NCBI GenBank assembly: GCA_964035545.1
Contig: OZ037773.1
Location: 10,542,251-10,606,250 of the forward strand
Direction of reading: 5' to 3'
DNA: 64,000 bases
Source: Bugula neritina
Taxonomy: Eukaryota; Bryozoa; Gymnolaemata; Cheilostomatida; Bugulidae
Both the position numbers and the translations under genes were made by a program. The notes beneath the pieces were generated by a model, which saw only the letters and a program-made list of their open reading frames with translations, was not told the origin of the DNA and did no database searches. Below, piece by piece: positions 3,059 through 35,364 of the stretch. Position 1 is the first letter of the stretch, and each line of letters opens with the position of its first letter.

Positions 3059-6000
3059 ATGAGTAAAAAGACTTTCAAAGAGGGAGAAGTTGTGTTTGCG
3101 AAGGTCAAAGGTTACCCTCCATGGCCTGCGCAAGTGAGTAATTGATTTATAAGTGACGTCTTCTTTCAGCTAACAGTTGAACTGTAAGTTTATCTCCTAT
3201 TGGCTCCTTTTATATGTCAAGTGGTTGACATGTCAAGACAGTGTCTGGTTGTAGCTATATGCAGTCTATAAGATAGGTGGGAGGAGACTTCTTATATAGA
3301 TCGTATAGGCTCCACCCTACTGAATACCTCTCCTCCTTGTTTTGTAGGTTATCGCTGCAGCTAAAGGAAAATATCCCGTCCTCTTCTATGGCACCAATGA
3401 GAGGTTAGCTTGTTGCTACCCTAATTAACAGTTTGTTAGTTATAATAGTCTATCACTGAAGTATACTAATGTAGTGTATAGTAAAGTAATGTATTGTATA
3501 GTAAAGTAATGTATTGTATAGTAAAGTAATGTATTGTATAGTAAAGTAATGTATTCTATAGCAAAGTAATGTATTGTATAGTAAAGTATTGTATTGTATA
3601 GTAAAGTAATGTATTGTATAGTAAAGTAATGTATTGTATATTAAAGTAATGTATTGTACAGTAATGTAGTGTATTGTATAGTAAAGTAATGTATTGTACA
3701 GTAATGTAGTGTATTGTATAGTAAAGTAATGTATTGTATAGTAAAGTATTCTATAGTAAAGTAGTGTATTGTATAGTAAAGTAATGTATTGTATAGTAAA
3801 GTAATGTATTGTATAGTAAAGTAATGTATTCTATAGCAAAGTAATGTAGTTTATAGCATAGCATTACATAATAAAGTAGTTTATTTGGAGTTGTTTTTCT
3901 TCCTAATTTCAGTGCCAATTGCAAGCCTCAGGATCTCTTCCAGTTTGCAGACTTTGAAGAGAAGTATGGGAAGAACAGTAAGCCAGCCTTTCTGAAAGCT
4001 ATGAGTGAAGCAAGAGATGTCATAGCTGGGGTTTTCAACAGTAATTCCGGCGGAACTCGTAGTCGGGTGAGGGAGATAACTCCTAGAATAGAGTACTAGA
4101 GTGAGACAACTCTAAACTCCTTCTGAGCTCAGTTAGTGTTTCACAATACATACCTTCTCTTCTATGTTGCCATGGAAACACATCTACTTGTTTATATAGA
4201 GATCAGAGACCAAGTCCTCAGCCAATCAAAAGACAGCAATATCAGCCAATCAGGTAGAAGAAAGTGAATCAGAAGACGAAGAACCTCCCAAGAAGAGAGT
4301 GAGCAGATAGTTATTATATACCTAATATATGTAGTATATGCAGTGTGTATAGTGTGTATACAGTGTGTAGTTAGTATATACCTGCTATATATTGTGTGTG
4401 TGCAGTGTGTAGTGTATGTACAGTGTGTAGTTAGTATATACAGTATGTATAGTATGTACAGTGTGTAGTATATACAGTATGTATAGTATATACAGTGTGT
4501 AGTTAGTATATACAGTGTGTAGTTAGTATATACAGTGTGTAGTTAGTATATACAGTATGTATAGTATATACAGTATATAGTTAGTATATACAATGTGTAG
4601 TATATACAGTGTGTAGAGTATGTACAGTGTGTAGAGTATGTACAGTGTGTAGTATATACAGTGTGTTGTGTGTTTTAGACGAAGGCCGTATCAAAGGCAA
4701 ATAAAAAGACACTCGTCACAAAAGCTGCTAAGAAAGCGCCAGCTTCTAGAAAGTCTAGTCGGAAAACTGTTAAAAAGTTAGTTGAGATTTATCCTTTCAA
4801 TGCTATGTTCTATGTATTATATTAAGTATACTATAATGGGTATACTAATGTCTGCATGCTCTTGTAGTGATGATGAGTCAGAAGAAGAGGCGGATGGAGC
4901 AGAATCTCCCCAAAGGGGTGGATCCAAGCGAGGAGGTAATAAACAGGGTTACATATTCTATTTATAGCCCCCTCCACTGAGATAGTATAAACTCTTGTGT
5001 TCTGTGTTACACATGAGAATGTAATGTAGGATCTACACGTCTGTCAGGTGATAGAGAGGAGGGGAAGAGTGACGTGGAGAGTGACGCCGCGTCTGCTGCC
5101 TCTCAACAGAGTGAGTCGGCAGCAAGTGAGAGAGACAGCGACGCTGACTCTGTGGAAGCTGTGCCAGTCAAGAAGACCAGAGCTAAAGCTGCGTCTAGAA
5201 AGTCTCCAGTGAAGAGAGGACGGCCAGCTAAGAAGGTTGACTCCTCGGAGGATGAGAAAGAGGCTGAGAAATCAGACGACAGTGTCTCGGGTAATCCATT
5301 GTTCCAGAATTATTTTAGAATGTTGATTGTAATAAAATGTACTTAGTAACTCAATGGAATATAGACTTTATAGTATGCACGTTGTAAGTATGTACGTTGT
5401 AAGTATGTACGCTGTTAGTATGTACATTGTTAGTATGTATATTATAAGTATGTACATTATAAACTTGTATGAAATAGTTTGTAAATTTGTAAATTGTCAA
5501 CATTGAACCAGTTGTTACTGAAAGAGCCAATCACTACTGGAGTAATACAGAGTAGCCAATCAGTACTGGCGTATCATAAAGAACCCAATGAAATTCACCC
5601 AATCATTCACGGTGTGTTTCAGATGCCGAGTCAGCAAAATCTAGTAGCAGCTCTGAATCTCATTCTTCGAGTTCTTCTAGCAGCAAGTCGGGGAGTAGCG
5701 AGTCCAGCCAACCTTCTACTGAGAAGGACAGAGAAGATGAGGCTAGGTTGCCTGCAGGGGTGGAGGAAGGAGATAATGATGAGGGGGAGTTGCCGACAGG
5801 GGTGGAGAAAGGAGATAATGATGAGGGGGAGTTGGCTGCTCCTACAGGGGTGGAGAAAGGAGAGGATAAAGAGGGGGAGTCTAAAAGTAAGATTCTAATT
5901 GCAGCATCTTATTCGGTGTTTTATGAGTTTATAGCATTTAATGTTTAAGTTTGAGCAATTTCATCTGTTATACATGTATTTCATTATAATATATTATGCT

Positions 6001-9000
6001 ACATTTTAATACAATATATCACATTATAATATAATATATTACATTAAAACACAATATATTACATTATGATACAATATATTACATTATAATACAATATATT
6101 ACATTATAATACACTTCAACAGACTATCTTCTCTCAGAATAAAGCAGAGTTCTTCTCTTGGAGGTAATTTATCTGTTGACTCTGTATAGAATATTCCGAT
6201 ATATTGTAGAGCTGAACAGTGACAACACGGCACCAGGTGCACTCGGTGGTGATGGGGAGTCGGTGACAACAGAGTCTAAGGAGGTTGTCACCAGTTTACC
6301 AGGTATATATACTCACATGTTACCAGGTATATATACTCTCTCATGTTACCAGGTATATATATACTCTCACATGTTACCAGGTATATATATTCTCTCACAT
6401 GTTACCAGGTATATATATTCTCTCTCATGTTACCAGGTATATATATTCTCTCACACGTTACCAGGTATATATATACTCTCACATGTTACCAGGTATATAT
6501 ATTCTCTCACACGTTACCAGGTATATATATTCTCTCTCACATGTTACCAGGTATATATTCTCTCACACGTTACCAGGTATATATATTCTCTCTCATGTTA
6601 CCAGGTATATATTCTCTCTCATGTTACCAGGTATATATATACTCTCACATGTTACCAGGTATATATATTCTCTCTCATGTTACCAGGTATATATTCTCTC
6701 ACATGTTACCAGGTATATATATACTCTCATATATAATATATTCTCTCTACAGGGGAGTCTAAAGATGACTCAGATAATCAGAATGCGTCTGCTACCAACT
6801 CGTCTGCAGAAGATGATGATGTCATCCACTCGAGCAGAGCTCACAAGTCTCACAGTAAGAACGCTGTCCTCAGTGAGTCAGACAGTGAGGAGGAGACTAA
6901 ACCTAAGGTGGGTGGGGCTACGGATGTTATTGGTTACAGTGTCAGCTTTGGCAGTGTATTGGCAGTGTTTTGATAGTTTGTGGATAAGAGTTCTGTGACC
7001 TCGTGGTTTGGCTAGTTATTGATGGGCAGAGCTTAATAATTTGAGCATATGGTGTTTCTGCTTTGTACCCACTTAGTCGGTGGCGCTTACTGAGTTAAAC
7101 TTGGGGGGTGTGGCTTACTGAGTTAAACTTGGGGGTGTGGCTTAGTGAGATAGACTTGGTGGGTGTGGCCTAGTGAGTTAAACTTCGTGGGTGTGGCTTA
7201 GTGAGATGGACTTGGTGGGTGTGGCTTAGTGAGTTGAACTTGGTGGGTGTGGCTTAGTGAGTTAAACTTGGTGGGTGTGGCTTAGTGAGTTGACTTACTC
7301 TGCTACTCTCATGTACAGAATTGTCTGGCTGTTCCTTACCAGGAAGAAGAGAAAGATTTGGAGCAGCTGTTGGCGGAGAGGAAACAGGAGCATCAGGAGT
7401 TGAAGTTGAAGAGACGACAAGAGAAGTTAGAAGAGCGAAGGCAGCGTCAGCTTCAGAGAGAGAAAGAGCAAGAAGAGGAGAGGAAAGCGAAGGAGGAAAA
7501 GAAAAGACAGCATCATATGAGTGAGTGGCGTGAGCTTCACACAGCTGACACTACTTGTCACTTCTAACACACCTGACACTCCTGACACTACCTGACACAC
7601 TCCTGACACTTCTAACACACCTGACACACTCATGACACTACCTGACACACTCCTGACACACTCCTGACACACTCATGACACTACCTGACACACTCCTGAC
7701 ACACACCTGACACTACCTGACACACTCCTGACACACACCTGACACACTCCTGACACACTCCTGACACTTCTAACACACCTGCCACACTCCTGACACTACC
7801 TGACACTCCTGGCACACTCCTGACACACACCTGACACACACCTGACACACTTGGCACATGTGACACAACTGACACTAATTGCTTTTTATTTTATTTTATG
7901 GTATCTTCTTATAGAGTTGAAGACGGAGAAGAAGTTAAGAGAGTTAGACGATGTGATAAAGAGATCGTTGGCAGTCAGTACGAAGGTAACACAATGTCTC
8001 TTCTACTCCTAAATATTAGCATCTATCTATCTAGTACTACTAGTGTTAGTACTACTAGTGTTAGTGCTACTAGTGTTAGTACTACTAGTGTTATTAGTGA
8101 GTAGTAAGTGAAATCAAGCACCTGTTGTAGGATGTTGACAAGTGTCTAGAAGCTATGAAAGAACTGAATGGTTTGGAGATTATAGCCTCCATGTTGGTGA
8201 AGTATCCAACCATCATTGATACTCTGAAGAAGGTATGTGTGCTTCTGTAATACCATTCATATGTGTACTCATGTAATACCATTCCTATGTGTACTACTGT
8301 AATACTATACTTACTCTGTGTACTCATGTAATACTATACTTACATAGTGTACCTCTGTAGTACTATACTTACTCTGTGTACCTTTGTAATACTATATTTA
8401 CTCTGTGTACTCATGTAATACTATACTTACTCTGTGTACCTTTGTAATACTATACTTACTCTGTGTACTCATGTAATACTATACTTACTCTGTGTACCTC
8501 TGCAGTGCCGGAAGTATAAAGCAGACGTCAAGGTGATGTCACAAGCCGACTCTCTCTGTAATAAACTCAAGTCTATCGCCAGCAGTGACAAGTCCGCTCT
8601 CTCTGCTCTCAACAAGCAGAAGTCTGACAAGCAGAAGGAGAAGAAGCCCTCTGGTGGCGAGAAAGTAGTAACACAGACGTCAAGTGGTGAACATTCAGTC
8701 TCAGTGCCTCCTCCGGTCACAGAACCTGTTGGTGCTAAAACTGGTGACACCATGCTGGAGCCCAGTGTTGGTGCTAACAGTACAGCTGCTGAGACTAATG
8801 AAGTAGGGACTGATGCTGTTCAGCCAATGAAATCGGAGGAAAGTGTAGTAACTGAGCCAATCAGGGAGCCAGCTGAAGATGGCACGGCCATAGATGACAA
8901 ATCAGAGCAGGTGCTTTCAAATATGCAGGCTGCATTAGTGACCACCCATGTAGAGAATATAGAGAATGACTCAGATAAAGTGAATACTGACAATAAAACC

Positions 9001-12051: not shown

Positions 12052-15000
12052 ATGAGCACCCAGAATGGAGGCTGCTACGTAGTGTATAAGTTGGGAGAAG
12101 GCAACTTCCGGTTCATGATTATACTGCTAGTTCTCATCTTCTATATGCTGACTGGAGCCCTGATATTCCAGTGAGTGTTGTCTCCCCATTCTCTAACCTT
12201 CCTTAGTGTGAAACTTCAGGCACCTTTGATGTTAGAAGAACTTTGATTGGCTATGAACTTGAAGCTTCTAAGTTGCAGTTTTGTTGATCAGCTAAAAGCT
12301 TTTTGACCTAAAAGCATTTCATTTTTCAACAATTTCTGTGTATGAAAAGTAAATACTAAAGTAACTGTTTGAATTATCGACCTGTAGCTTCTTCTATGAA
12401 CAGCTTTCAGCTGTATGTTCATTAAAGACAAAAGATTCTCCTGAGTTACCTGAACTTAATCAAAATCTACCTTGTACATAGATTCTACTTGAATGTTGAA
12501 ACACATTTTGTTTTAACGAATGGAATCGCATAATACTTTAGTAGATCGTTAAACTCTGTGGCGAGGTCATTCACCTGACAGTCATCATGTTCATATGACA
12601 TGATAATATATCTGTATCATTAGAGAGTAGAAGTGTTGACAATGTACCTTAAGAATGTTCTAATTATAAACCAACTCACAGTTCAACAACTCCTTTCTCC
12701 AATAACCAAGTAGATAATATGTTGTTGGGAGACCACATGGTCATATCTTCTCCCAACATCCTAGTATAGAATGCACTAGAGAGATAATATTCCCCTGACA
12801 CTCTCTGGATCAGCTGTAGACTCTACTCTATGCAGCTCTAAACTCTGTAGAATACTGCATAGATAGCTAGAAGTATAAACTCTGGCAAGTTGCAGGTATA
12901 AACGCTAGCAAGTTGAGGGTATACACTCTAGCAAGTTGAGGGTATACACAGTAGCAAGTTGGGGGTATACACACTAGCATGTTGGGGGTATAAACAGTAG
13001 CATGTTGAGGGTATACACACTAGCATGTTGGGGGTATAAACAGTAGCAAGTTGGGGGTATAAACACTAGCAAGCATTATGTAAAGTATAGCAGAGACTTT
13101 AAAGTACAATAACTCAGAGTTTGAATGGTGAATGTCAAAAAGTCAAACCACTTCGCAAGAACACTGCTCTCTTAACACTATACTCATCTTATTTTCTTGG
13201 CAAAAATAAATAATAAATTTTAAACTCAATAATTTAAGGTGTTTTAATAATAGTTTGACCTCATTATCTTATTGATTGTGCTGAGGTTGCCATAGCAGGG
13301 TTTTCTTAAGGAGTGTTTTGCTGGGCTGTATAGGCTATTGATGAGCTGTATATCCACTTGGGGAAAGATTCATGCTGAGAAATCAACTGGACACTAAGTG
13401 CACTTGATATGCTGTCAACACTTTCTAGAATATTCCATGAATATGATTGGCATGAGTGTTGCTAACATATGGAAGGAGTTCTGGTGTGTATCATACTTGA
13501 AGAGCTGAAGTTTTACACTCCTATCTATTCTGTATGAATATACTCCACACTAGAGAGAGATACAAACCTGGTACTTAATGTACATGACCCTTCCCCACAT
13601 AGTAAACACTCGTGGTCTGGTCACGTGTTGCTGGGTGTCGGATGAACACATGTTTATGTATACTCAGTGACACTCAGGGTTCCTACTAGATATGCAGTTC
13701 CATACTTTGACAGTATAAATAATTATAAATGAAAACCAACTGATTAGATTCCTTTGTATTATGGTATTATGTTGTGTGTTGCATCATGTTGTAGTAACAG
13801 CTAAGAGATGTTCAGTATAATAACAATCTCTGTGTTTGTTTCAGAGCCATCGAGCAGCAGAGAGAGAAAGAAGAACGTCAGAACTATATCCTCTCCAAGC
13901 AGCTCTTCCTCTACAAGTATCCTCTCATCAACAAAAGTGACCTTGACACTCTACTCAACTTACACGAGGAGGCCGCTGCCAACGGTCATCTGGAAGACAG
14001 CGTTGAGCGGTGGAGCTTCTACGGCTCTCTCTATTTTATATCCACATTGGTACTTACCATAGGTAGGTGCTTACCATAGGTAGGTATCTCTGTCATATAT
14101 TACTTACCATAGGTAGGTATATCTGCTCTAATACTTACCATAGGTAGGTACAACCACTACATTACTTACCATAGGTAGGTACTTACCATAGGTAGGTATC
14201 TCTGCTGTAGTAAGTACCCACAGAAGGTTATTCTCAGTTCACTAGTTTTGGATCTTACTGTGTTTTCAGTTATTTTAGTTGTAAGACTACATACTTCCCC
14301 TTTTCAAACCCTCAACATTTTAAACCTTGACCTTCTTTACTTCCTCTTAGGTTTTGGAATGACGTTCCCCATAACAAAAGCTGGGAAACTTGTGTGCATT
14401 ATCTATGGGTTCTTTGGATGTGTTCTCAGTGTGTTGACCTTTAACCTCTTCCTTGAGCGAATCATCATCATGTGGACGGAGATCATTAAGAAGTCGTGTC
14501 ACCTGTTCAGAAAACTGAAATCAGTTGGAGGTAATAAAGTTTCGGCTATGAATAGGTGAGCAAATGTTACTATCCCTCTTGATCTCTCCTGGTATACTGT
14601 ACAATAATACTGTTATACATCCCTTGATCTCTCCTGCTATACTGTACAATAATACTGTTATATATCCCTCTTGACCTCTCCTGGTATACTGTATATATTG
14701 TTATATGTCCCTCTTGATCTCTCCTGGTATACTGTATATATTATTATATATCCCTCTTGATCTCTCCTGCTATACTGTACAATAATACTGTTATATATCC
14801 CTCTTGACCTCTCCTGGTATACTGTATATATTATTATATATCCCTCTTGATCTCTCCTGGCATACTGTATATATTATTATATATCCCTCTTGATCTCTCC
14901 TGGTATACTGTATATATATTGTTATATATCCCTCTTGATCTCTCCTGGTATACTGTATATATTGTTATATGTTGGTACCACCAACTATTTTGTGTGTTTA

Positions 15001-16805
15001 CTTCATAGGTTGCTTTGACTTCTTTTCGCGTTTTCGAGTTTGTAATGATTTGCATCAACTTAAATTTAGAAGTGGGCTGACAACTTCTGTAGCTTGAGAT
15101 CTAGAGTTGTAATATACATGTATGTTGTTTAATATGAGCTAGACATATCTGACTCTAGAACCACGGCTAAGAGAAGTATAGATATGAACGCAGCATGATG
15201 TATCACTTGAATCATGTAGGTAGTAGTTGCATATGACCTTGCATTGTATAGATATATAGTCTGAGTTAAGTACAGATTGCAGTACACACACTCCACAGAG
15301 ACTGCATCTCAGACTATCTTTGTCATCAAACTCTCGTATGAATTAGCATCAAGCAACCTATTCACTTTCAAGTTACAGAAGAAGTGAACTAAAATTTCCA
15401 GTTTACTACCATCATAGAGTAGTCTGCATTGAAAACTTTCCAAATTTATGAGGTCGCTCTCACAGTACTACTACCCACAGTACTGCTACTCGCAGTACTA
15501 CTACTACTCACAGTACTACTACTATAATAGTAGCTAGAGTCAGCAGCTGAATTGATGACCTCACTTCCTGTTTAGCAGTGTTGAAGAAGAAGAGAAGGAC
15601 TGGAAGCCGTCTATATTGAAGCTGATAGTATTGCTGACCTTCACAATGACCTTCATCACGCTGTCTATGACACTTCTGCTCACTTACACGGAAAATTGGA
15701 AGTTCCTCGAAAGTTTATATTTCTGTTTCATCACGTTTGCTACGATAGGTGAGAGATACATATATAGTCTGTATATATAGTGTACAATAGGTGAGAGACA
15801 CATCCCTGTCTGTATATACTGTTATTTAGTGTTATATATAGTGTATAATATAGTGTGTATATAGTATATATACAGTATATTATAGTTAATATACTGTATA
15901 TAATATAGTGTATATAATGTATATACTGTATATAATATACTGTATATAATATAATGTATATAGTGTATATAATATAGTGTGTAATATTATCCTGTTTGGT
16001 AGGGTTTGGAGACTTGGTCTCCCACCAGCAGACAGAGTATAGACTAAGGTCCCAGGCTGCCTACAGTGCCTTCAACATAATACTCATATTCATTGGCTGC
16101 GCCTGCATGTACAGTCTACTCAACGTCCTCTCTATACTCATCAAAGAGAGGCTCATAGACTCCATCCAGTTCATGACCAGGAAGCTTCCCAGCTGCTACT
16201 ACGACCCGAATCTCAAGGTCGTTGCAAAGAGAGGCAGAAGACATAATGTCAGTTTTGATATCACGTCCAGCGAGACTGAAACGACGACTCCTCGATACGT
16301 GTGGTCTCGGGGTAGTAGCATCTCGTCCCACACTCAGTACAGACAGAACATTGACAATATAGCCTTAGAGGCAAGGAGCAAGCATGTTGACACAGTGAGT
16401 GTGTTGAGTGAGTACGACAAGTGTGTGGTGGCCATAGACGCCCCTCAAGATGATGCTGGAGTTGTCCCCACTAAGCACCAGCTGGAGGTAACCAGGAAGT
16501 CTGTTCACAATCTCTCTCCCGAGCACAACAGACACAGTCTCTGGTCCACTCAGGGCAGTCCTACAAAGTTCCGGAACAAGTCTGCAGACGGAATAGAGGT
16601 GAATCAGAAAAGAGGCGCCCGAAAGAGTTTACATAAACGGGAGACGTACATTGACCTACATCACCTCAATCAGCTGTCTAAGAGCAGAGCTAGCAGACCT
16701 AAGTCTAAGACTTCGTACGCCGCAAAGGTCGGGGGGATGAACATCGTCACCTCAACTCTCCAGGAAGTGATCTCACCAGACTCCTCAGAGTCCGAGTTAG
16801 AATAG
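12052..16805 (+). CDS. KCNK13: Two-pore-domain potassium channel, THIK type
   Basis: Five exons: 12052-12170, 13845-14062, 14351-14555, 15579-15748, 16003-16805; 504 aa. K2P subunits dimerise to make plasma-membrane background K+ channels. TM1 is at about 20-39 (FMIILLVLIFYMLTGALIF). The extracellular cap follows, then pore 1 with filter TIGFGMTFP (GFG at 113-115) and TM2/TM3. Pore 2 has filter TIGFGDLVSHQ (GFG at 238-240), then TM4 and a long cytoplasmic tail rich in Ser, Arg and Lys that ends SESELE. GFGM in pore 1, GFGDLVS in pore 2 and NVLSILIKE after TM4 are hallmarks of KCNK12/13 (THIK). A phase-1 intron cuts the first Gly codon of the filter in both pores. Polyadenylation is probably at 17432. 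The gene converges on ERO1. Confidence 0.93.
12886..13078. repeat. ~22-bp minisatellite in channel intron 1
   Basis: About nine copies of a unit like AGCAAGTTGGGGGTATAAAC. Confidence 0.85.
14049..14206. repeat. Splice-donor-containing repeat in channel intron 2
   Basis: The real exon 2 donor CTTACCATAG|GTAGGT is followed by five more exact 16-base copies, irregularly spaced. The exonic half encodes the Leu-Thr-Ile-Gly run of the pore 1 filter. Confidence 0.92.
14572..14972. repeat. ~43-57-bp minisatellite in channel intron 3
   Basis: About nine copies of units with CCCTCTTGATCTCTCCTGG and TATACTGTATATATT. Confidence 0.85.
15742..15985. repeat. Donor duplication and TATA-rich repeat in channel intron 4
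   Basis: The exon 4 junction AC(G)ATAG|GTGAGAGA is duplicated once about 44 bases downstream. TATATAGTGTATAAT-type repeats follow up to the acceptor at 16002. Confidence 0.75.
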
Positions 16806-17238
16806 ATCCTCTCTCGTGTTGGTGCTCTATAGTATATGTGTCATGTGTATGATACAGTAAACACTGTCAACCACTTGCTACTGGTGTCAAGTTTATTATA
16901 ACATAGTTAGTTGGCTACAGGGAGAGAATTCTTCAACCACCCAAAATGTGAAGATAACTCCTAATATTTCAGCCTATTGCCCCTTACAGCAATGATTTTC
17001 ATTATTTTTAAAAAGTTTATTTTGTTGAATCTTTGTATTTTTTAGGTAATAATAGTTATATCGACTTTTTAAAAATTGCCCAAGAGCTATATGAATGTCT
17101 TCTATAGCATTTTATATCATGTGCCTTCTAGATCTATGGTTTGTTATAGATTAGTTACTTCTGAAAGTCTCCCACTTGAATACATTGTAAGACCTGTAAG
17201 CAAGCTTTGTATTTCAGTTGCTATACAGTAACTATCAG

Positions 17239-17431: not shown

Positions 17432-17437
17432 AATAAA
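17432..17437 (+). terminator. Candidate polyadenylation signal of the channel gene
   Basis: AATAAA 627 bases after the stop codon; the first good hexamer on this strand. Confidence 0.4.
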
Positions 17438-17995: not shown

Positions 17996-20900
17996 TCAAG
18001 GAAGCAGCTCCCTGAAACCTTCTATATACTTTATACTAGTAGACAACCTGCAAAGAAGTAACATATCTCAATATATGTTATGAGAATACAAATGGATAAA
18101 ATGGATATGATATGAGAATACAAATGGATAAAGTGGACATGGTTGTATCACAGTTTACCTGCCGAATGCATTAAAGAGGGAGACAACTTCTACTCTGTTG
18201 AGACGGAAATCACTCTTACTATCATCAGTTAGAATAGACTGGGGACCCATATTCTCACCAGAGAAGAGTATTTTGAGGGCTGTTCCCATGCCCCGTACCT
18301 GTAAGAGAAGAAAGCAGCGGGTTTCAGTATAATATTCAGTCTCTCGCAGTATAAACTCTCCCAAGTCTCTACGCAGAGAGAAAAGCCTGCAGTGATGTAT
18401 AAAGACTGTGTTCCAACCTGTAACTTGCCCCACAGTTTGCACTTGTCACATCCCACACAATCCATTATTCTAGAAATGTTTAGGAACTTCAGTCTAAACT
18501 CTTCCTTCAACTGACTGGCTTCACCTTGAAACAGTTTCGACTCGTCAAAGTGATGAGGAAATTGCCTACAGGAATAGAATCTAGTAGCTGTGATATTACC
18601 AGGGTACACTTTAGTATCTAGTAGCCCTGATATTACCAGAGTACACTATAGTATCTAGCAGGTGTGATATTACCAGGGTGCACTATACTATCTAGTAGAT
18701 GTGATATTATCAGTGTACACTATAGTATCTAGCAGGTGTGATATTATCAGGGTACACTATAGTATCTAGCAGGTGTGATATTACCAGGGTACACTTTAGT
18801 ATCTAGTAGCTGTGATATTACCAGAGTACACTATAGTATCTAGTTGGTGTGATATTACCAGGGTACACTCACGTTATGGTATCTAGTAGCTGTGATATTA
18901 CCAGGGTACACTCACGTTATAGTATCTAGTAGCTGTGATATCGCCATATTGGTCTCCCGGTCAACGACTTCATCTCCCGTGTAGTACAGTTGCTGGACAA
19001 ACAGACAGACAAGAGTCAAAGTGAATCAGTGAAATACTTTTTACTTGTTTCTACCAACTCAAAGAATAACGGTAAAAAAAGTGAGTCCACCCCCCTCATC
19101 CCCCCCCCCCCCCCCCCCCCCGGGATGTGTGCACTCAGCATATCAACGGGATTAGACACTCAGAGGGGAGGATTAGACACTCAGAGGGGAGGATTAGATA
19201 CACAGAGGGGAGGATTAGACACTCAGAGGGGAGGGTTAGATACACAGAGGGGAGGATTAGATACACAGAGGGGAGGATTAGACACTCAGAGGGGAGGATT
19301 AGATACACAGAGGGGAGGATCAGACACACAGAGGGGAGGATTAGACACACAGAGGGGAGAATTAGACACTCAGGGGGGAGGATTAGACACTCAGAGTTCG
19401 TTCAGCATATCCTGTCAACTGACAAGTAAGAGAGACAGATAGCTGATACGGGAGGGGGTGGTGCAACACTCCTGGGATACGCATATCTGATGAGAGGAGG
19501 GGGTGGTGTTACACTCCTGGCACACAGTATCTGATGAGAGGTGGATGACTTACTTTCTTGAGATAGGGGGCTGCCTTTGCCAGAGCCCTGAGCTCTACAA
19601 GGTACGTAAAGTAAAGGTTGCGCAATCGCAGAGGTCCTTGTTTGTTGGTTCTTTTAGGGTCAAACCTCTTGTAGAACTCATTGGGGTTCATTTTCCATTC
19701 ATCTTTCCCGAGTACAGTTTCACCTAGGATATAGTATAACATCACCTAGGATATAGTATAGTATCACCTAGGATATAGTACAGTATCACCTAGAATATAG
19801 TACAGTATCACCTAGGATATAGTATAGTATCACCTAGGATATAGTATAGTATCACCTAGGATATAGTATAGTATCACCTAGGATATAGTATAGTATCACC
19901 TAGGATATAGTATAGTATCACCTAGGATATAGTATAGTATCACCTAGGATACAGTATAGTATCACCTAGGATATAGTATAGTATCACCTAGGATATAGTA
20001 TAGTATCACCTAAGATATAGTATAGTATCACCTAGGATATAGTATAGTATCACCTAGGATATAGTATAGTATCACCTAGGATACAGTATAGTATCACCTA
20101 GGATACAGTATAGTATCACCTAGGATATAGTATAGTATCACCTAAGATATAGTATAGTATCACCTAGGATATAGTATAGTATCACCTAGGATACAGTATA
20201 GTATCACCTAGGATATATTAAACAACAACAACTTACGAGGAAAGAAGTAATTAGCCGACAGGTGGGTGTTTATACTCGTGTGAAGACCAGAGACCATCCG
20301 ATAGAAAGTCCTTTTCTCCAGACACATGGAAGCTGCAAGTAAAGTGAATAACTGTAGAAAACTTACAAACTATTTGAAGACTAGTTATATTATCATATAT
20401 ACTTTTTATCAACATATTAGTAAACACATAAGTTAAAGTCAGACTGATTCTTAACAGGAAATGTTAGAATAACAGGAAATAATTTTGGTAACCATCAACT
20501 GAAATCAAGAGTGTAAATCACAATGAATATAAATCACAATGAATAAAGATTAGTTATAGCAAAGCAAATGTTGTAAGAAGGATAAATCAGAGAGTTTACA
20601 AGAGCAATTGATTACAACATAAAGGAGTAAGACTTACTAGTGAGTCATACTAGTGAGTCGTACTAGTGAGTCGTACTAGTAAGTCATACTAGTACGACTC
20701 ACTAGTACGACTCACTAGTACGACTGGTTTACAAATGCGCAAGTCCTAAGCTGTTAGTCTCGGATCTTTCAGCGGCTCTTGGGACATGAAGGTAAATAAT
20801 TCCAGTATCAATACAAGACAGCAGTGAGAGAGAGACAAGTTAATCTGTGATTACTAACTGCTTAGGACTTGGCGACTGTTGGGAGACAAGTGTTACACTT

Positions 20901-23900
20901 ATAGCACAGGATTTACCATAAAGAGTGGTTGGGTCACCTTCAGGGAATAGTGAGAGATAATAATATTAATAATACTAATAGCAGGGGTGGATAGTATTAG
21001 TAGCAGGGTTATATTAGTAAGGAGTGGATAGTACTAGTAGCAGGGTTATGCCAGTAAGGAGTGTATAGTACTAGTAGCAGGGTTATATTAGTAAGGGGTG
21101 GATAGTACTAGTAGCAGGGGTGAATAGTACTAGTAGCAGGGTTATATTAGTAAGGAGTGGATAGCACTAGTAGCAGGGTTATATCAGTAAGGAGTGGATA
21201 GCAGTGATAGCAAAAGGGGTGTTGCTGTACACACTTACTGGATACAAAATGAGATCTGAAATCTGCATATAAAATTACCAGAACACATACATTATGTTAT
21301 AACAGAAAGAACAGCAAGAAAGGTTACGATTAGAGTCAGCATTGACTTAGTACATGAAGATACAGATGCTGGCTGCATGGAAATACAGATGCTGACTGCA
21401 TGGGGTTAGTGGTAAGTAACTCTGAGTGAACACAGCAAAAGACTGAATGTAGTGCAAGGAGTGCGAAAGGGGGAGTGCGAGGGGCAAAGTAGGGAGCGTT
21501 TTATCAGAAGTAGAGACAGAAACATGGAGACTAACCTGAGGGTATTCCAAAGGTGGCTTCTTCACCTGCCCTGTAATACATTATGTATACACAGTATATA
21601 TACAGTATATAATACAGTATGTAATACAGTATATATACAGTATATAATACAGTATGGCAGGAGTGGATACAGTATATATACAGTATGGCAGGAGTGGATA
21701 CACAGTATATACAGTATGTCAGGAGAGGATACAGAGTATAATAGAGTATGTCAGGAGTGAATACAAGACTACCTTTCATTGAAACAGTTTTCATTGTAGA
21801 TTGAGTTCCATATTTTGTGGGCATCAGAACCAGCATAGGCTGTGTACCTCTCAGGGTTTAGTAGTAAGTTGACATACTCTAGAGTGGGTGACGTCTCATC
21901 TGTACAGATACAGAACCAAGGCTAAGTTGTAACACATATTCTACAAGTTCTATATAATACACTATACACATATTCTACAAGTTCTATAGAATACACTATA
22001 CACATATTCTACAAGTTCTATAGAATATACTATACACATACTCTACAAGTTCTATAGAATACACTATACACATGTTCTACAAGTTCTATAGAATACACTA
22101 TACACATATTCTACAAGTTCTATAGAATATACTATACACGTACTCTACAAGTTCTATAGAATATACTATACACGTACTCTACAAGCTCTATAGAATATAC
22201 TATACACGTACTCTACAAGCTCTATAGAATATACTATACACGTACTCTACAAGCTCTATAGAATATACTATACATGTACTCTACAAGCTCTATAGAATAT
22301 ACTAGAAGCTTTACTCACCATCCAACTCACAGAAGTTATTCTGAGACGCATCATGCCGACTCCAACCCTCGAATGCTTCATTGCTCTCTTCACTAAATCC
22401 AACAACAACAAACATTGAGTCTAAGAAGAGGTCATTTAACCTGCTTCATACTGTGGAATAGTCTCCCCCAGACTATGAGAGGACAACAACAGACACTGTA
22501 ATATATTATACTGTCTCACCTGATAGTCTCATATTATACTGTCTCACCTGATAGTCTCATACTATACTGTCTCACCTGATAGTCTCATACTATACTGTCT
22601 CACCTGATAGTCTCATATTATACTGTCTCACCTGATAGTCTCATACTATACTGTCTCACCTGATAGTCTCATATTATACTGTCTCACCTGATAGTCTCAT
22701 ACTATACTGTCTCACCTGATAGTCTCATACTATACTGTCTCACCTGATAGTCTCATACTATACTGTCTCACCTGATAGTCTCATACTATACTGTCTCACC
22801 TGATAGTCTTATCTACTCTACTCAGCTCCATCTCCGTCTCATCAGCTGCACCACAGCCTGAGTTCTGAGCTGAACTGCTGTATTTCTTAGCAGCATCCAT
22901 GTGGGTCGATTTGGACTCCTCCCCACTCCCATTCTTCAGCCCGTCTGGGATCTCATCCTAGGAATAAATACAACCTTGCACTGTGTGTCAGTTGTATAGT
23001 GACAACCTTGCACTGTGTGTCAGTTGTATAGTGACAACCTTGCACGGTGTGTCAGTTGTATAGTGACAACCTTGCACTGTGTCAGTTGTATAGTGACAAC
23101 CTTGCACTGTGTGTCAGTTGTGTAGTGACAACCTTGCACTGTGTGTCAGTTGTATAGTGACAACCTTGCACTGTGTGTCAGTTGTATAGTGACAACCTTG
23201 CACTGTGTGTCAGTTGTATAGTGACAACCTTGCACTGTGTGTCAGTTGTATAGTGACAACCTTGCACTGTGTGTCAGTTGTATAGTGACCACCTTACACT
23301 GTGTGTCAGTTGTATAGTGACAACCTTGCACTGTGTGTCAGTTGTATAGTGACCACCTTACACTGTGTGTCAGTTGTAACACAAGAGGCGACAAGACATA
23401 GGATATCTACCAAGTAGACTATAGTGCAGATGATGTAGACTACCAGCACTACGGGGACTACCAGCACGTTTATGAGTGATTATAATATAATAAGATGGTA
23501 TTATTTTGATAATCAACGTGTCTAGCTACAAAGAGATGAGTAGAAGGAAGTCACATGACACACCCAGATGCTGGCACTACACACAACACAATAATCTTAT
23601 ATTATAATATATCTCAACTATCTTAAGAGCATAGCCTTAAAGACTCACCTCTGAACATAGCCTTAGAGACTCACCTCTGAATGTAGCCTTAGAGACTCAC
23701 CTCTGAACATAGCCTTAGAGACTCACCTCTGAACATAGCCTTAGAGACTCACCTCTGAACATAGCCTTAGAGACTCACCTCTGAACATAGCCTTAGAGAC
23801 TCACCTCTGAACGTAGCCTTAGAGACTCACCTCTGAATGTAGCCTTAGAGACTCACCTCTGAACATAGCCTTAGAGACTCACCTCTGAACATGACTTCAC

Positions 23901-26731: not shown

Positions 26732-28938
26732 ATGGTGACTGGTATATCTCATCTCCTACTCCTAGGTAAGTTATTATAAACTTACTCATAGGTAAGTTAT
26801 TATACACTTACTCTTAGGTAAGTTATTATAAACTTACTCCTAGGTAAGTTATTATACACTTACTCTTAGGTAAGTTATTATACACCTACTCCTAGGTAAG
26901 TTATTATAAACTTACTCATAGGTAAGTTATTATACACTTACTCTTAGGTAAGTTATTATAAACTTACTCATAGGTAAGTTATTATACACTTACTCTTAGG
27001 TAAGTTATTATACACTTACTCCTAGGTAAGTTATTATACACTTACTCCTAGGTAAGATATTATATACTTACTCGTAGGTAAGTAGTTGGAGTTGTGTCAA
27101 CCTAGCCTGAGTTATGTTAGCAGCAATGTATGACGAAACAGAAGTTGTGTTACCAGAGTTTGTAGCCTAGCAGAGTTGTGTTCTCAGCTGTGAATAACCT
27201 AGTTGGAGTTTTATTGCCACTATTTGGTAGGTTTGCTGTTTCCTGGGCCCGTGCAGCTGCTCAAGTGTTATACGTGTGACAGCAGAGACAACAGTAGATG
27301 TCTAGACAGTTATATTCCGTACTCTTTTCACAAAGAGTCATGTCCGGTTGATCCTCATCAACATGTTGGCTGTTCCAAGAAGAAACAGAGTCTGCGGGTG
27401 TCTGGTATTCATACTTCTACAGGTATTCATATTCTACAGGTATTCATAGTCTACAGGTATTCATACTTCTACAGGTATTCATACTCTACAGGTATTCATA
27501 TTCTACAGGTATTCATATTCTACAGGTATTCATACTTCTACAGGTATTCATACTCTACAGGTATTCATATTCTAGAGGTATTCATATTCTACAGGTATTC
27601 ATATTCTACAGGTATTCATATTCTACAGGTATTCATACTCTACAGGTATTCATATTCTACAGGTATTCATATTCTACAGGTATTCATATTCTACAGGTAT
27701 TCATATTCTACAGGTATTCATATTCTACAGGTATGCATGTTCTACAGGTATTCATATTCTACAGGTATTCATATTCTACAGGTATTCATATTCTACAGGT
27801 ATTCATACTCTACAGGTATTCATACTCTACAGGTATTCATATTCTACAGGTATTATATAATGTTGTAGTTTGGCGAGGTTGTAATTGGGTGTACAACAAC
27901 AGCCACTGTCTGCATGGAGATAGACTTAGAGAGGAAGTAGAACAGGATTCTGGGACAGTGGCTACCATCTTCACATGGACATGTTCTTGTACATCAGCTG
28001 ACTATTGTAATGGTTCAGCTACCAGCTCCGTGATGTTACTTCCTCTGATAGCAGGTGTTTATATACCGTATGCTGCGTATATATTACTATTATACTTTGT
28101 GTAATATATTACTAGTATACTCTGTGTAATATATTACTAGTATACTCTGTGTAATATATTACTAGTATACTGTATATATTACTAGTAAACTGTATATATT
28201 ACTAGTATACTGTATATATTACTAGTATACTGTATATATTACTAGTATACTGTGTATATTACTAGTATACTGTATATATTACTAGTATACTGTATATATT
28301 ACTAGTATACTCTGTGTAATATATTACTAGTATACTGTATATATTACTAGTATACTCTGTGTAATATATTACTAGTATACTGTATATATTACTAGTATAC
28401 TGTATATATTACTAGTATACTCTGTGTAATATATTACTAGTATACTGTATATATTACTAGTATACTGTATATATTACTAGTATACTGTGTATATTACTAG
28501 TATACTGTGTATATTACTAGTATACTGTGTATATTACTAGTATACTGTATATATTACTAGTATACTCTGTGTAATATATTACTAGTATACTGTATATATT
28601 ACTAGTATACTGTATATATTACTAGTGTACTGTATATATTACTAGTGTACTGTATATATTACTAGTATACTGGATATATTACTAGTATACTGTGTATATT
28701 ACTAGTATACTGTATATATTACTAGTATACTGTATATATTACTAGTATACTGTATATATTACTACTGTACTGTATATATTACTAGTATACTGGATATATT
28801 ACTAGTATACTGTGTATATTACTAGTATACTGTATATATTACTAGTATACTGTATATATTACTAGTATACTGTATATATTACTACTGTACTGTGTATTTG
28901 CAGGAATCTGGGTGACTAATATGCTGTTTGGAATATAA
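26732..28938 (+). CDS. Ly6/uPAR (three-finger) GPI-anchored protein, quiver-like
   Basis: Four exons: 26732-26765, 27231-27404, 27869-28054, 28904-28938; every junction is phase 1; 142 aa. The N-terminal signal peptide (MVTGISHLLLLGLLFPGP) is itself split by intron 1 and leads into LLKCYTCDS, the usual first strand of a Ly6 domain. Cysteines follow the three-finger order: CYTC, RC, ESC, VGC, then RGCNW, SHC, and TCSC...DYCN at the end. After NGS comes a hydrophobic C-terminus (VMLLPLIAGIWVTNMLFGI), as expected for GPI attachment. The layout and the RGC(N/G)W block resemble the quiver/sleepless and Boudin group, which modulates channels or septate junctions; which role applies here is unknown. 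If intron 2 is retained, the exon 2 frame stays open through the whole repeat and ends at the TAG of the acceptor. Confidence 0.87.
26753..27083. repeat. 26-bp splice-donor array in Ly6 intron 1
   Basis: Thirteen copies, including the real donor, of TACTCCTAG|GTAAGTTATTA. Nine bases are exonic. Confidence 0.93.
27405..27850. repeat. 17-bp GT...AG array forming Ly6 intron 2
   Basis: About 25 units of GTATTCATATTCTACAG, some 18-19 bases. Every unit starts with GT and ends with a pyrimidine-rich TTCTACAG. All three plus frames are open. Confidence 0.93.
28080..28893. repeat. ~20-bp minisatellite in Ly6 intron 3
   Basis: About 40 copies of TATATTACTAGTATACTG variants, interspersed with CTGTGTAA versions; higher-order blocks are visible. 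Confidence 0.92.
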
Positions 28939-29686: not shown

Positions 29687-32600
29687 ATGGCAGCTTTTTT
29701 CAAACTTATTTTCATATCCATGGCTTTGGTCACCTTTTCTGGTAAGTGTTATCTTCTCCTGTTAAACTATCCTCTCTCTCGTATCTACATTGAACAACTG
29801 TAATGTAATAATGGGAAATTCCTTTACTATTTATGAAGTTGTTTGCCCACTCAATTTTTTTTCCAGGTACAGATGGCCGGCCCACTAGCTCCTCACTCCA
29901 CGGCTCCTTCAAGCGTTACGTCACATTACTAAAGAAGATCAACGACTCTCCCGCTCTCAGAGCAGAGTGGAGCAAGCATGTTCAAACCATTCGGGAAGAA
30001 CCTGTATGTAACTTATGAGTTTAAATCCAACTTGCAAAATAAAAAATCATTTGTGTAGATTTACAGTCTATTATTATTTAAAGTTTCCAACTCAAGTTAC
30101 CTGTAGTAGTTTGTTAGGGTACAACACAGCAATGTGTATAGTAGGTCTGCTTTAAACTCTTATCTTATTGTGTCATAAAACTTGCCTGTTGGATTATAGT
30201 AATAGTGTAATTCTTCATAAGATAGCAGCACTTTGTTGGTAACTGCAGCTTTTTTATCCTGAAACTGGGAATTTTAGTTACTAAAGTATATTACACGTAC
30301 AGTGACCTAGTATATTGCTACTTACAGTATATTGCTACTTACAGTATATTGCTACTTACAGTATATTACTACTTACAGTATATTGCTACTTACTGTATAT
30401 TGCTACTTACAGTATATTACTACTTACAGTATATTGCTACTTACAGTATATTGCTACTTACAGTATATTGTTACTTACAGTATATTACTACTTACTGTAT
30501 ATTGCTACTTACAGTATATTACTACTTACAGTCTATTACTACTTACTGTATATTGCTACTTACAGTATATTGCTACTTACAGTATATTGCTACTTACAGT
30601 ATAATACTACTTACAGTATATTGCTACTTACAGTATATTGCTACTTACAGTATATTGCTACTTACAGTATATTGCTACTTACAGTCTATTGCTACTTACA
30701 GTATATTGCTACTTACTGTATATTGCTACTTACAGTATATTACTACTTACAGTATATTGCTACTTACAGTATATTGCTACTTACTGTATGTCTGTTTATG
30801 TAGGCTTTGCACGACTTTCAAGAGAATGGAAAAAAATTTGCTCTGAGTTGTGAAAATGCTGGGCGTTCACCCTCAAGGCCAACATCAGGTCAGACTTCTG
30901 TATTACTTTGAGTATGAATTATATTACTTCAAGTATGAATTATATTACTTCAAGTATGAATTATATTACTTCAAGTATGAATTATATTACTTAGTCTGGT
31001 TTCTGTAGTTCATAGACTGAGAGCAGGAGATATTGATGTGGTGGCTGCCATGGGAGACTCCCTCACTGCTGGTAACGGAGCCTTAGCCTCGACTATCTTC
31101 GGTTGTCTCACAGAATATAGGGGGCGCTCTTGGAGGTATCCACCCTACTAGTGACTAGTGACTATATACTATGTACAGTGTAGTACTGCTATACATTACA
31201 CTGTATGTTTATATATTTCTTCAAGGGATAATGTAGCATAATTTGTTTTATTTGACTGTTACAGTATAGGAGGGGACCTAAGCTATGAACAAGGGGTTAC
31301 CACCCTCCCCAGTAAGTTATCCACCCCCTTATTTAAGACGTGTCCGGTATTTAAACACTTGTTGCTATGTCACCACTGTTGCTATGTAAACACTGTTGCT
31401 ATGTAAACACATGCTGTTGCTATGTAAACAGCTGTTGCTATGTAAACACTGTTCCTATGTAAACACATGCTGTTGCTATGTAAACAGTTGTTGCTATGTA
31501 AACGCTGTTGCTATGTAAACACATGCTGTTGCTGTGTGCTGCAGATATCCTGAGAAACTTTAATCCAGCGATCAAGGGATTCTCAGTGGGACGTGGAGAC
31601 GAGAATTCCTCTGGTGCCAAGATGAATGTAGCTGTTGCTGGTGCTATTGCGCAGTGCGTGTTACACTAGTATAGTATAGTATAGTATACAGAGTACTTAG
31701 TATATATAGAGTATAATATACAGAGTACTCAGTATATATAGAGTATAGTATACAGAGTACTTAGTATATACAGAGTATATATAGAGTACTTACAATATAC
31801 AGAGTGACTGTGTTTACAGAGACATGCCCACTCAAGCCATAGAGCTGGTGAAGCGTCTTCATGATGATTCTGGCGTTGACTTCAACAATGACTGGAAGAT
31901 GGTGACTCTGTTTATTGGAGGGAATAATCTGTGTGACTATTGCAATGACTATGTGAGCTGTATTACCTCTTGTGATTGGTTGATAGATTGCATGCTGTCA
32001 TGTGATTGGTTGATGGTTTGCGTGCTGTCACGTGATTGGTGCATCAATCTTGTGATAGTAAAATGTGTTTTATTGGTCACATTTCCCTAGAACGCCCACT
32101 CAGCCGAGACCATGATAGCTAATGTGAAGGCAGCTGTGGACTATCTCTTCGACAACTTGCCGAGGACATTCGTGAACCTGGTGGAGATCTTTGATATCGC
32201 TCCTGTGGCTAACCTCGGCAACGGGTTCATCTGCGGCCTCGTTCACAAGTATGTGAGTCAACATGTGTGACATGTTTACTCAGTACTGTGACATGTTTAC
32301 TCAGTACTGTGTGACATGTTTACTCAGTGCTGTGTGTGACATGTTTACTCAGTGCTGTGACATGTTTACTCAGTACTGTGACATGTTTACTCAGTACTGT
32401 GTGACATGTTTACTCAGTGCTGTGTGACATGTTTACTCAGTACTGTGTGACATGTTTACTCAGTGCTGTGTGACATGTTTACTCAGTGCTGTGACATGTT
32501 TACTCAGTACTGTGTGTGACATGTTTACTCAGTACTGTGTGACATGTTTACTCAGTACTGTGTGTGACATGTTTACTCAGTACTGTGTGTGACATGTTTA

Positions 32601-35364
32601 CTCAGTACTGTGTGACATGTTTACTCAGTGCTGTGTGACATGTTTACTCAGTGCTGTGACATGTTTGCTCAGTGCTGTGACATGTTTACTCAGTGCTGTG
32701 TGACATGTTTACTCAGTACTGTGTGACATGTTTACTCAGTGCTGTGTGACATGTTTACTCAGTACTGTGTGACATGTTTACTCAGTGCTATGTGTGACAT
32801 GTTTACTCAGTACTATGTGACATGTTTACTCAGTGCTGTGACATGTTTACTCAGTGCTGTGGCATGTTTACTCAGTACTGTGTGACATGTTTACTCAGTA
32901 CTGTGACATGTTTACTCAGTACTGTGACATGTTTACTCAGTGCTGTGTGTGACATGTTTACTCAGTACTGTGTGACATGTTTACTCAGTGCTGTGTGTGA
33001 CATGTTTACTCAGTGCTGTGGCATGTTTACTCAGTACTGTGACATGTTTACTCAGTACTGTGACATGTTTACTCAGTGCTGTGTGTGACATGTTTACTCA
33101 GTACTATGTGACATGTTTACTCAGTACTGTGTGTGACATGTTTACTCAGTGCTGTGTGACATGTTTACTCAGTGCTGTGTGTGACATGTTTACTCAGTAC
33201 TATGTGACATGTTTACTCAGTACTGTGACATGTTTACTCAGTACTGTGTGACATGTTTACTCAGTACTGTGACATGTTTACTCAGTGCTGTGTGTGGGTG
33301 TGGTCACGGTGCTGACGCCAACACCGAAGAGCTCACTGCTCTGTCCGTCGCCTACCAGAAGGCTGTAGAGGATCTCGTGGCGAGTGGCAGATACGATGGG
33401 AAAGACGACTTCGCAGTTGTGAGTCAGACATTCTTCAAGGAGACCACGCCTCCTCCGAAGGTATTGACTTTGTCACCTCCTCTCTCATTGGATAACTCTC
33501 TTCTCCTCTCTCATTGGATATATCTATTGTATTTACTCGTATTAATATTTTAGGCGAATGGAGACCCTGATCTCTCATACTTTGCACCCGACTGTTTCCA
33601 TTTTAGTTCCAAGGGACAGAATACTGCTGGTAAAGGGCTCTGGCTCTCTCTGGTGTGTTTTTCTTGACTTCTGCATATTACACTTACTATATATCTGTAT
33701 ATTACACTTACTATATATCTGCATATTACACTTACTATATATCTGTATATTACACTTACTATATATCTGTATATTACACTTACTATATATCTGTATATTA
33801 CACTTACTATATATCTGCATATTACACTTACTATATATCTGTATATTACACTTACTATATATCTGTATATTACACTTACTATATATCTTTATATTACACT
33901 TACTATATATCTGTATATTACACTTACTATATATCTGTATATTACACTTACTATATATCTGCATATTACACTTACTATATATCTGCATATTACACTTACT
34001 ATATATCTGTATATTACACTTACTATATATCTGTATATTACACTTACTATATATCTGTATATTACACTTACTATATATCTGTATATTACACTTACTATAT
34101 ATCTGCATATTACACTTACTATATATCTGCATATTACACTTACTATATATCTGTATATTACACTTACTATATATCTGTATATTACACTTACTATATATCT
34201 GTATATTACACTTACTATATATCTGTATATTACACTTACTATATATCTGTATATTACACTTACTATATATCTGTATATTACACTTACTATATATCTGTAT
34301 ATTACACTTACTATATATCTGTATATTACACTTACTATATATCTGTATATTATTACATTTTCTGCAGATTGAACCTGTTGGCCGGAAGCCGAAGGATTGG
34401 GGACTTGATCAGGCAGTTGAGTGTCCCAAAGTAAGTATAGAGTAATATATGATATACTGTATAGTATAGAGTAATATATGATACACTGTATAGTATAGAG
34501 TAATATATGATATACTGTATAGTATAGAGTAATATATGATATACTGTATAGTATAGAGTAATATATGATATACTGTATAGTATAAAGTAATATATGATAT
34601 ACTCTATAGTATAGAGTAATATATGATATACTGTATAGTATAGAGTAATATATGATATACTGTATAGTATAGAGTAATATATGATATACTGTATAGTATA
34701 GAGTAATATATGATATACTGTATAGTATAGAGTAATATATGATATACTGTATAGTATAGAGTAATATATGATATACTGTATAGTATAGAGTAATATATGA
34801 TATACTGTATAGTATAGAGTAATATATGATCTACTGTATAGTATAGAGTAATATATGATATACTGTATAGTATAGAGTAATATATGATATACTGTATAGT
34901 ATAGAGTAATATATGATATACTGTATAGTATAAAGTAATATATGATATACTGTATAGTATAGAGTAATATATGATATACTGTATAGTATAGAGTAATATA
35001 TGATATACTGTATAGTATAGAGTAATATATGATATACTGTATAGTATAGAGTAATATATGATATACTGTATCGTATAGAGTAATATATGATATACTATAT
35101 AGTATAGAGTAATATATGATATACTGTATAGTATAGAGTAATATATGATATACTGTATAGTATAGAGTAATATATGATATACTGTATAGTATAGAGTAAT
35201 ATATGATATACTGTATAGTATAGAGTAATATATGATATACTGTATAGTATAGAGTAATATATGATATACTGTATAGTATAGAGTAATATATGATATACTG
35301 TATAGTATAGAGTAATATATCTCTATTTTAGACGGAGTTTTTACCAACTCGAAAGAATTATTAG
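29687..35364 (+). CDS. PLB1: Phospholipase B (GDSL/SGNH lipase), single catalytic unit
   Basis: Twelve exons: 29687-29741, 29867-30003, 30804-30888, 31009-31135, 31265-31311, 31545-31653, 31820-31952, 32091-32248, 33286-33460, 33554-33652, 34368-34430, 35332-35364; 406 aa, phases consistent. PLB1 enzymes cleave both acyl chains of phospholipids at the cell surface or in secretions. A signal peptide starts [23 protein letters not shown] blocks are visible: block [12 protein letters not shown] with the nucleophile Ser; block [14 protein letters not shown], where most relatives have GGND; block V DCFHFS with the Asp and His partners. NVAVAGA supplies the usual Gly block. Vertebrate PLB1 has four such units and a C-terminal membrane span; here there is one unit and no membrane segment, since the last exon encodes only [11 protein letters not shown] secreted single-unit enzyme is the simplest reading. 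Confidence 0.93.
30309..30795. repeat. 17-bp minisatellite in PLB1 intron 2
   Basis: About 28 copies of TATTGCTACTTACAGTA-type units. Each holds an acceptor-like TACTTACAG, and all three plus frames are open. Confidence 0.92.
30903..30992. repeat. 21-bp repeat in PLB1 intron 3
   Basis: Four copies of TATTACTTCAAGTATGAATT. Confidence 0.8.
31355..31540. repeat. ~17-bp repeat in PLB1 intron 5
   Basis: About nine GTTGCTATGTAAACA units. Confidence 0.8.
31663..31805. repeat. Degenerate repeat in PLB1 intron 6
   Basis: AGTATATATAGAGTATAG and ACAGAGTACTTAG units fill the intron. Confidence 0.75.
31960..32045. repeat. ~28-30-bp triplication in PLB1 intron 7
   Basis: Three copies containing TGTGATTGGTTGATAG and TGCGTGCTGTCA variants. 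Confidence 0.7.
32258..33297. repeat. Acceptor-containing array in PLB1 intron 8
   Basis: More than 40 copies of GACATGTTTACTCAG|TGCTGTGTGTG variants (TGCTG or TACTG). The last copy supplies the real exon 9 acceptor and its first 11 coding bases. Confidence 0.93.
33668..34352. repeat. 24-bp minisatellite in PLB1 intron 10
   Basis: About 28 very homogeneous copies of a unit with TATTACACTTACTATATATC. The 24-base period keeps frame, giving a spurious 295-codon open frame of an 8-residue repeat. Confidence 0.93.
34431..35322. repeat. 29-bp minisatellite forming PLB1 intron 11
   Basis: About 30 copies of a unit with AGAGTAATATATGATATACT, starting inside the donor (GTAAGTATAGAG) and running to the acceptor; very few substitutions. 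Confidence 0.93.

Follow-up and report, generated by a model that had tools for sequence, protein, structure and literature searches.

Splice-junction-spanning minisatellites in introns of a repeat-dense region near a chromosome end of Bugula neritina

Genes and introns of the interval

The window, a stretch of 64,000 nucleotides of chromosome 9 of Bugula neritina (C9, 10,542,251-10,606,250), has the right end of that chromosome at a distance of 274 to 338 kb. Within positions 3059-35364 of the window, to which all feature coordinates below refer, we modelled five protein-coding genes, one fewer than the six of a preliminary description of this DNA: a PWWP/LEDGF gene (15 exons), a two-pore K channel gene (K2P, 5 exons), an ERO1 gene on the minus strand (12 exons, the model being incomplete at its 3' end), a Ly6-like gene (LY6, 4 exons) and PLB1 (12 exons). 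Models came from a simple gene finder, after which we curated the exons, taking into account homology, splice signals and reading frame; those of ERO1 were placed with tblastn. Pfam supported three of the genes (PWWP, LEDGF, Ion_trans_2 and Lipase_GDSL were found), the identity of ERO1 was backed by homologs, among them a match at 64% identity in the bryozoan Watersipora subatra, and the Ly6 assignment was made by eye. Together with a CCCH zinc-finger gene beyond the interval, which contributed one intron, these genes gave a set of 44 introns, all of them GT-AG, the acceptor of ERO1 intron 4 being afterwards corrected from homology. A search of the window with Rfam returned one tRNA, at 57899-57971.

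Genome-wide searches covered 215.8 Mb in 295 contigs, a few small scaffolds being absent; the published B. neritina assembly, tzBugNeri2.1, has 216.0 Mb in 320 scaffolds and an alternate haplotype (PMC11480708). We also analysed a sample of 15 stretches, each 10 kb long and chosen at a round coordinate; almost all are interior, and the one nearest to an end lies 1.0 Mb from it. Eight of these (L039, L040, L041, L043, L045, L047, L048 and L050) supplied 65 introns from ab initio models. Stretches with transposon-like or unsure predictions (L042, L046, L049 and L052) or without a predicted gene of 100 aa (L044, L051 and L053) were left out. Predictions that were antisense or unsure were also discarded on L039, L041 and L048, and so was any intron with a flanking exon piece of fewer than 12 bases.

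Nine introns repeat their own exon/intron junction

We searched each intron for a second copy of its own junction, scoring the two sides apart and accepting a net score of at least 5 on the exon side and at least 4 on the intron side. Nine of the 44 introns were found to repeat their own exon/intron junction, seven at the 5' border (PWWP 9, K2P 2, K2P 4, LY6 1, ERO1 3, ERO1 4 and ERO1 10) and two at the 3' border (PLB1 8 and ERO1 8), an asymmetry that is a hint only at such small numbers. When exon edges were swapped between introns, about 0.45 cases in total were obtained, with means of 0.34 at the 5' and 0.11 at the 3' border (2000 permutations; p ≤ 0.0005 and p ≤ 0.004, respectively). At a stricter exon score of 10, five 5' and two 3' introns remained. 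Across the nine introns there are 112 junction copies, each with its GT or AG kept (12-base word, at most one mismatch). The preliminary description had named eight introns with junction-bearing repeats and proposed a comparison of border matches with shuffled pairings; all eight were recovered, ERO1 8 being the one that it lacked, and the matches stand well above the shuffled expectation.

Arrays were those listed by Tandem Repeats Finder (TRF). On the plus strand, intron 9 of the PWWP/LEDGF gene (6303-6752) carries an array at 6296-6729 with 15.9 copies of a 28-bp unit that includes the 5' junction; all 7/7 exon-side bases match, and 15 junction copies occur within the intron at one mismatch or less. 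Intron 2 of the two-pore K channel gene (14063-14350, plus strand) adjoins an exon that encodes the pore motif TIGFG. Its 5' junction recurs in a row of 17-bp units at 14049-14198, listed also as 31-bp units at 14070-14181, with 12/12 exon-side bases and five junction copies. Intron 4 of the same gene (15749-16002, plus strand) has a single extra copy of the 5' junction at a shift of 42 bp (15741-15803; 7/8 exon and 12/13 intron bases). It is the weakest case, and we kept it in the nine even though the extra copy is not part of the intron's TRF array. In Ly6-like intron 1 (26766-27230, plus strand) the 5' junction is repeated within 12.6 copies of a 26-bp unit at 26757-27083 (exon side 11/11, 12 junction copies). 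The longest row of copies belongs to PLB1 intron 8 (32249-33285, plus strand), where 45 copies of a 23-bp unit at 32264-33294 repeat the 3' junction, again with 11/11 exon-side bases, and 41 junction copies are retained.

The remaining four cases lie in ERO1, on the minus strand. Intron 3 (22958-23882) has 10.1 copies of a 26-bp unit at 23630-23892 and intron 4 (22393-22799, with the corrected acceptor) has 11 copies of a 28-bp unit at 22503-22809; both repeat the 5' junction with 10/10 exon-side bases, in nine and ten junction copies, respectively. In intron 8 (19724-20236) the 3' junction is repeated by 23 copies of a 22-bp unit at 19711-20217 (exon side 12/13, 18 junction copies). The clearest case is intron 10 (18566-18915), in which 9.6 copies of a 37-bp unit at 18574-18941 span the 5' junction and reach 26 bases into the exon; 25 of these bases recur, and the junction word is kept in just one inner copy.

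Further arrays and the properties of their units

Other introns of the interval hold arrays that do not span a border. On the plus strand these include 39 copies of a 20-bp unit in Ly6-like intron 3 (28077-28897), 28.5 copies of a 24-bp unit in PLB1 intron 10 (33670-34352) and 30.6 copies of a 29-bp unit in PLB1 intron 11 (34434-35320), the last starting 3 bp inside the intron. Ly6-like intron 2 consists almost entirely of 26.6 copies of a 17-bp unit (27404-27858, plus strand), with one exon base involved. Tandem repetition also occurs in coding sequence, where exon 8 of the PWWP gene contains 42-bp units (14 codons) repeated in frame at 5736-5834 on the plus strand. At least 50 bp of array is present in 33 of the 44 introns, so that the earlier statement that nearly every intron has its own private array stands for the privacy of the arrays and goes too far in "nearly every".

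To compare units between arrays we took a random quarter of the window's unit pairs. Only eight of these 559 pairs reached 85% identity or more, against two with shuffled units, and they were mostly short units. Units are thus private to their arrays, as the preliminary description had argued in favouring local duplication over transposition, and the sampled pairs gave no sign of an element shared across introns, such as an introner or a transposon giving rise to introns. The 112 array units of the window and sample together do resemble each other in vocabulary, which is strand-symmetric: TA, GT/AC and AG/CT steps are frequent in it, and AA/TT, GA/TC and CpG are scarce. TAGTA/TACTA is 8.3-fold and GTATA/TATAC 6.6-fold enriched, and AAA, GAA and CpG are depleted. 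Units are also somewhat hairpin-prone (mean z of -0.65, p = 8e-5, n = 88), with a z of -0.61 relative to dinucleotide shuffles (p = 0.01) and of -0.22 for random genomic 60-mers.

Array density and position on the chromosomes

Border copies were found in three of the 65 sample introns, one strong and two weak, with 0.27 and 0.21 obtained from swapped edges; of these three introns, two are free of arrays. The window is therefore richer in such copies than the sample (9/44 versus 3/65, Fisher p = 0.013; 1/65 with the strong case alone, p = 0.001), and per array-bearing intron the figures are 9/33 and 1/13 (p = 0.24). Arrays make up 60.7% of intron bases in the window versus 6.5% in the sample, and 24.4% versus 2.6% of all bases, which marks the window as a dense domain. 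Window bases outside the gene models are 10.6% array. Most of the difference in border copies may come from array density, although numbers are small. The growth of introns by such repeats had been called a genome-wide habit; as a uniform property of the genome, that is not supported, given the contrast in intron array share and border copies between window and sample.

We searched the genome for tandem copies of the 5' splice-site motif MAGGTRAGT at 15-45 bp spacing and found 1433 + 991 (2424) places, versus 31 + 27 (58) for the reversed pattern. Single copies were not enriched (9 versus 10 reversed in 266 kb). The reversed pattern was at first taken as a decisive control and has been downgraded, as the strand-symmetric unit vocabulary itself favours AGGTAAGT over its reversal and splice-like words are not sense-biased. 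The array vocabulary alone yields a 2.5- to 14-fold ratio (the third-order figure includes motif-bearing arrays) versus the 42-fold observed, and so accounts for part of the tandem MAGGTRAGT excess. The residue could reflect a real preference for, or capture of, real splice sites. On the wider matter of end enrichment, two words unrelated to splicing gave few counts, 14 + 2 versus 3 + 6 and 1 + 18 versus 1 + 0.

Tandem clusters of AGGTAAGT lie towards the chromosome ends. Seventeen of 22 were within 3 Mb of an end, compared with 24 of 122 gene places (7tm_1 and kinesin genes, hand-picked so that each gene or near group counted once). The cut at 3 Mb was set with the data in view, and the KS test (p = 8e-5) needs no cut. 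On chromosome 1, for which the clusters derive from the 100 of the 2424 places that were listed and are complete to 33.5 Mb, eight clusters fall in the first 3 Mb, six between 3 and 29 Mb and ten between 29 and 33.5 Mb, that is, 2.7 and 2.2 per Mb at the ends versus 0.23 in the interior. The 26 gene places of that chromosome are distributed 3, 18 and 5 over the same segments. Array coverage at 45 loci fell with distance from the end (Spearman -0.31, p = 0.035), with 7.9% in the five loci under 3 Mb from an end versus 1.9% in the other 40, a difference driven mainly by one locus, L034. Telomere-repeat patterns were found at 0 and 1 places in a search that skips simple repeats, and chromosome ends are here the ends of contigs. 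A far-reaching extension of these data, and in our estimation something of a long shot, is that each chromosome of B. neritina ends in belts where introns are continually rebuilt from their own exon borders by tandem duplication, roughly ten times as often per Mb as in the interior. Hundreds of genes would in that case bear ladders of identical decoy splice sites, 10 to 40 in each, and introns that collapse to under 35 nt would have been born from arrays.

Individual loci add some detail. L034 (C2, about 0.156 Mb) is a GPCR locus near a chromosome end and, with 38% arrays, the densest of the 45 loci outside the window, and L048 (C3, 10.00-10.01 Mb) is an interior hot spot, with arrays over 13.4% of its length, both inside and next to a predicted MPP-like gene. 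Some of the 22 AGGTAAGT clusters are plain AGGT/AAGT microsatellites (L004, L008). Around position 1500 of L008, on the minus strand, a coding-looking exon is followed by a likely 5' splice site (GTAAGTAAGT), right at which the AAGT/AGGT microsatellite starts. No coding exon is seen just upstream of the cluster in L001.

Placement and origin of the arrays

In our placement model a unit of length u is set at random over the collapsed intron length c, the length left after cutting the array down to a single unit, and at small c many units straddle a border. Collapsed introns have a median length of 112 bp. Under uniform placement 13.8 of 41 arrays would be expected to span a border, and nine introns were observed (P(≤9) = 0.047), K2P 4 included in spite of the position of its copy. 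Between the borders, 8 of 33 window arrays lay in the outer quarters, where half would be expected (KS p = 0.13), compared with 8 of 12 in the sample (p = 0.19; KS p = 0.07) and 16 of 45 in both combined (KS p = 0.25). This test took the largest array of each intron, and ERO1 3 hence entered with its non-spanning array. In 44 arrays from window and sample introns, 5' splice-like words were stronger than in shuffled or reversed units, and they were not stronger on the sense strand of the gene (sense 1.39 versus antisense 1.67); ERO1 10 fell outside the limits of the strand test, which took the other array of ERO1 3. Since uniform placement suffices, border positions are not favoured by the window's arrays and there is no sense bias, seeding at splice sites is not required, and the proposal of the preliminary description that duplication started there is not borne out.

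Duplication that starts preferentially at exon/intron borders, for instance at AGGT, would make junctions hot spots of array birth throughout the genome. It would account for the junction copies in nine introns, for the part of the tandem MAGGTRAGT excess that vocabulary leaves over and for the outer position of most sample arrays, and we nevertheless regard it as unlikely. The placement tests do not support it: spanning arrays do not exceed the uniform expectation and window arrays are few in the outer quarters. The splice-like words lack the sense-strand bias and border copies are scarce in the sample. Some introns might instead have been created outright by tandem duplication of exonic sequence, as in the AGGT duplication model, the array then being the intron itself, and border duplications that made new introns have been published for human (PMC2812944) and potato (PMC4974935). 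Five array-bearing introns of our set (PWWP 9, PLB1 8, LY6 2, ERO1 8 and ERO1 10) would fit such a birth, as they collapse to 18-33 nt once the array is reduced to one unit. This is below the workable size of an animal intron, so that simple growth of these introns needs either an added deletion, in which unique intron sequence was lost, or an array-first origin. However, a comparison of array and intron coordinates shows that each of the nine spanning arrays takes in a single border, and a duplication supplying both splice sites was accordingly not found among them. The intron at the channel pore, which we take to be old and conserved, also counts against birth by duplication, and we consider it quite improbable.

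The exon bases in the units could also have come from the arrays, if exon borders had moved into pre-existing arrays and adopted splice sites supplied by the repeat. Such a shift is conceivable for PWWP 9 and LY6 1, and at ERO1 8 the border residues vary, with gaps in two of the ten homologs shown. At five of the nine borders, however (PLB1 8 and ERO1 3, 4, 8 and 10), the exon bases that recur in the array align without a break to the two closest homologs, and therefore copying there ran from exon to array. The border residues are best conserved at PLB1 8, ERO1 4 and ERO1 10, where the homologs seen carry them, and weakest at ERO1 8; PLB1 8 reads VHNAVCGCG where its two closest homologs read VHGAVCSCG, and AVC recurs in animal PLB1. 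K2P 2 and 4 encode the pore motif, which we presume to be conserved. A shift of borders into the arrays is thus very improbable as an explanation of the nine cases. That the arrays were mis-assembled is hardly credible: tandem arrays are generally difficult to assemble, but tzBugNeri2.1 was built from PacBio HiFi reads at about 132-fold with a QV of 53.7 (PMC11480708), and the units within one array differ from each other and are not perfect copies.

Probably, then, local tandem duplication striking at random positions gave rise to the private intron minisatellites, including the nine that repeat a real splice junction, within a repeat-prone domain close to the chromosome end. A short segment anywhere in this domain would be duplicated by slippage or break repair, favoured by its mildly hairpin-prone words, and unequal exchange would then enlarge and homogenize the array, as a feature of chromosome-terminal domains. 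A duplication wholly within coding sequence would survive only if it kept the frame, as the 42-bp repeat of PWWP exon 8 does. An intronic or border-straddling duplication would survive because splicing at the outermost site removes all extra copies and so hides them. In compact introns, many duplications would straddle a border by geometry alone. We infer the choice of the outermost site from the conserved continuity of the proteins.

Relation to known boundary repeats

The closest parallels are the amphioxus "mirage" minisatellites of Adh3, globin, troponin C and PGBD5, which are tandem repeats across an exon-intron boundary, 5' or 3', with AG/GT retained in many of the units; splicing of these genes is reportedly normal, and the authors link the repeats to possible intron gain (PMC3087553, PMC3902484). 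The Bugula repeats likewise have units that span exon-intron boundaries, affect both 5' and 3' borders and keep AG/GT in many units. The nine introns are mirage-type minisatellites in another phylum, real and well supported. They differ from the amphioxus mirages in that nine cases occur in five neighbouring genes, with a spacing of about 17-42 bp and up to 45 copies, and in that their surroundings, close to a chromosome end, are dense in arrays; they are known here from genomic sequence.

Internal tandem repeats at exon-intron boundaries in human segmental duplications have been proposed to give novel introns through cryptic splice sites (PMC2812944). They share with the Bugula arrays the minisatellite-size units at boundaries; the human case concerns recent primate paralogs with transcript support, whereas the Bugula repeats are genomic observations in conserved genes. 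The intron gain in potato RdRp also involved a duplicated segment that crosses an intron-exon boundary, and differs in that the Bugula arrays lie at one border of existing introns (PMC4974935). In the open literature, searched by titles and abstract openings and with subscription journals mostly uncovered, we found no report of such repeats in a bryozoan. A term search in the accessible text of the Flustra foliacea genome paper gave zero hits each for "tandem repeat" and "introns" (PMC13326412).

Minisatellites cluster subtelomerically in other genomes. The rise of array density towards the ends in Bugula resembles this, as measured from splice-motif arrays and a small sample and relative to contig ends.

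With these results, border-spanning mirage repeats, which have been reported in lancelets, are extended to a bryozoan, and the local cases are numerous enough to test their origin. The placement test indicates that border copies in compact introns need no special seeding, which bears on AGGT duplication as a driver of intron evolution. PLB1 8 and PWWP 9, with 41 and 15 junction copies, offer natural experiments in which the spliceosome would have to choose the outermost of many identical sites.

Further observations

The perfect 5' site MAG|GTRAGT was absent from all 109 introns of the window and sample (of which the 65 sample introns come from ab initio models), with GTRAGT present in 29 and MAG in 40 (hypergeometric P(0) = 1e-7). 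This may reflect avoidance of full U1 complementarity or an unusual compensation rule. Within the sample, L046 contains long predicted open frames that resemble a Gypsy-type retrotransposon. Kinesin matches on several small contigs (C213, C189, C210, C52, C281, C292 and others) contain TAA and TAG codons in frame at many places and TGA at few, a pattern that we take to resemble a ciliate genetic code and that makes ciliate contamination among the unplaced contigs probable.
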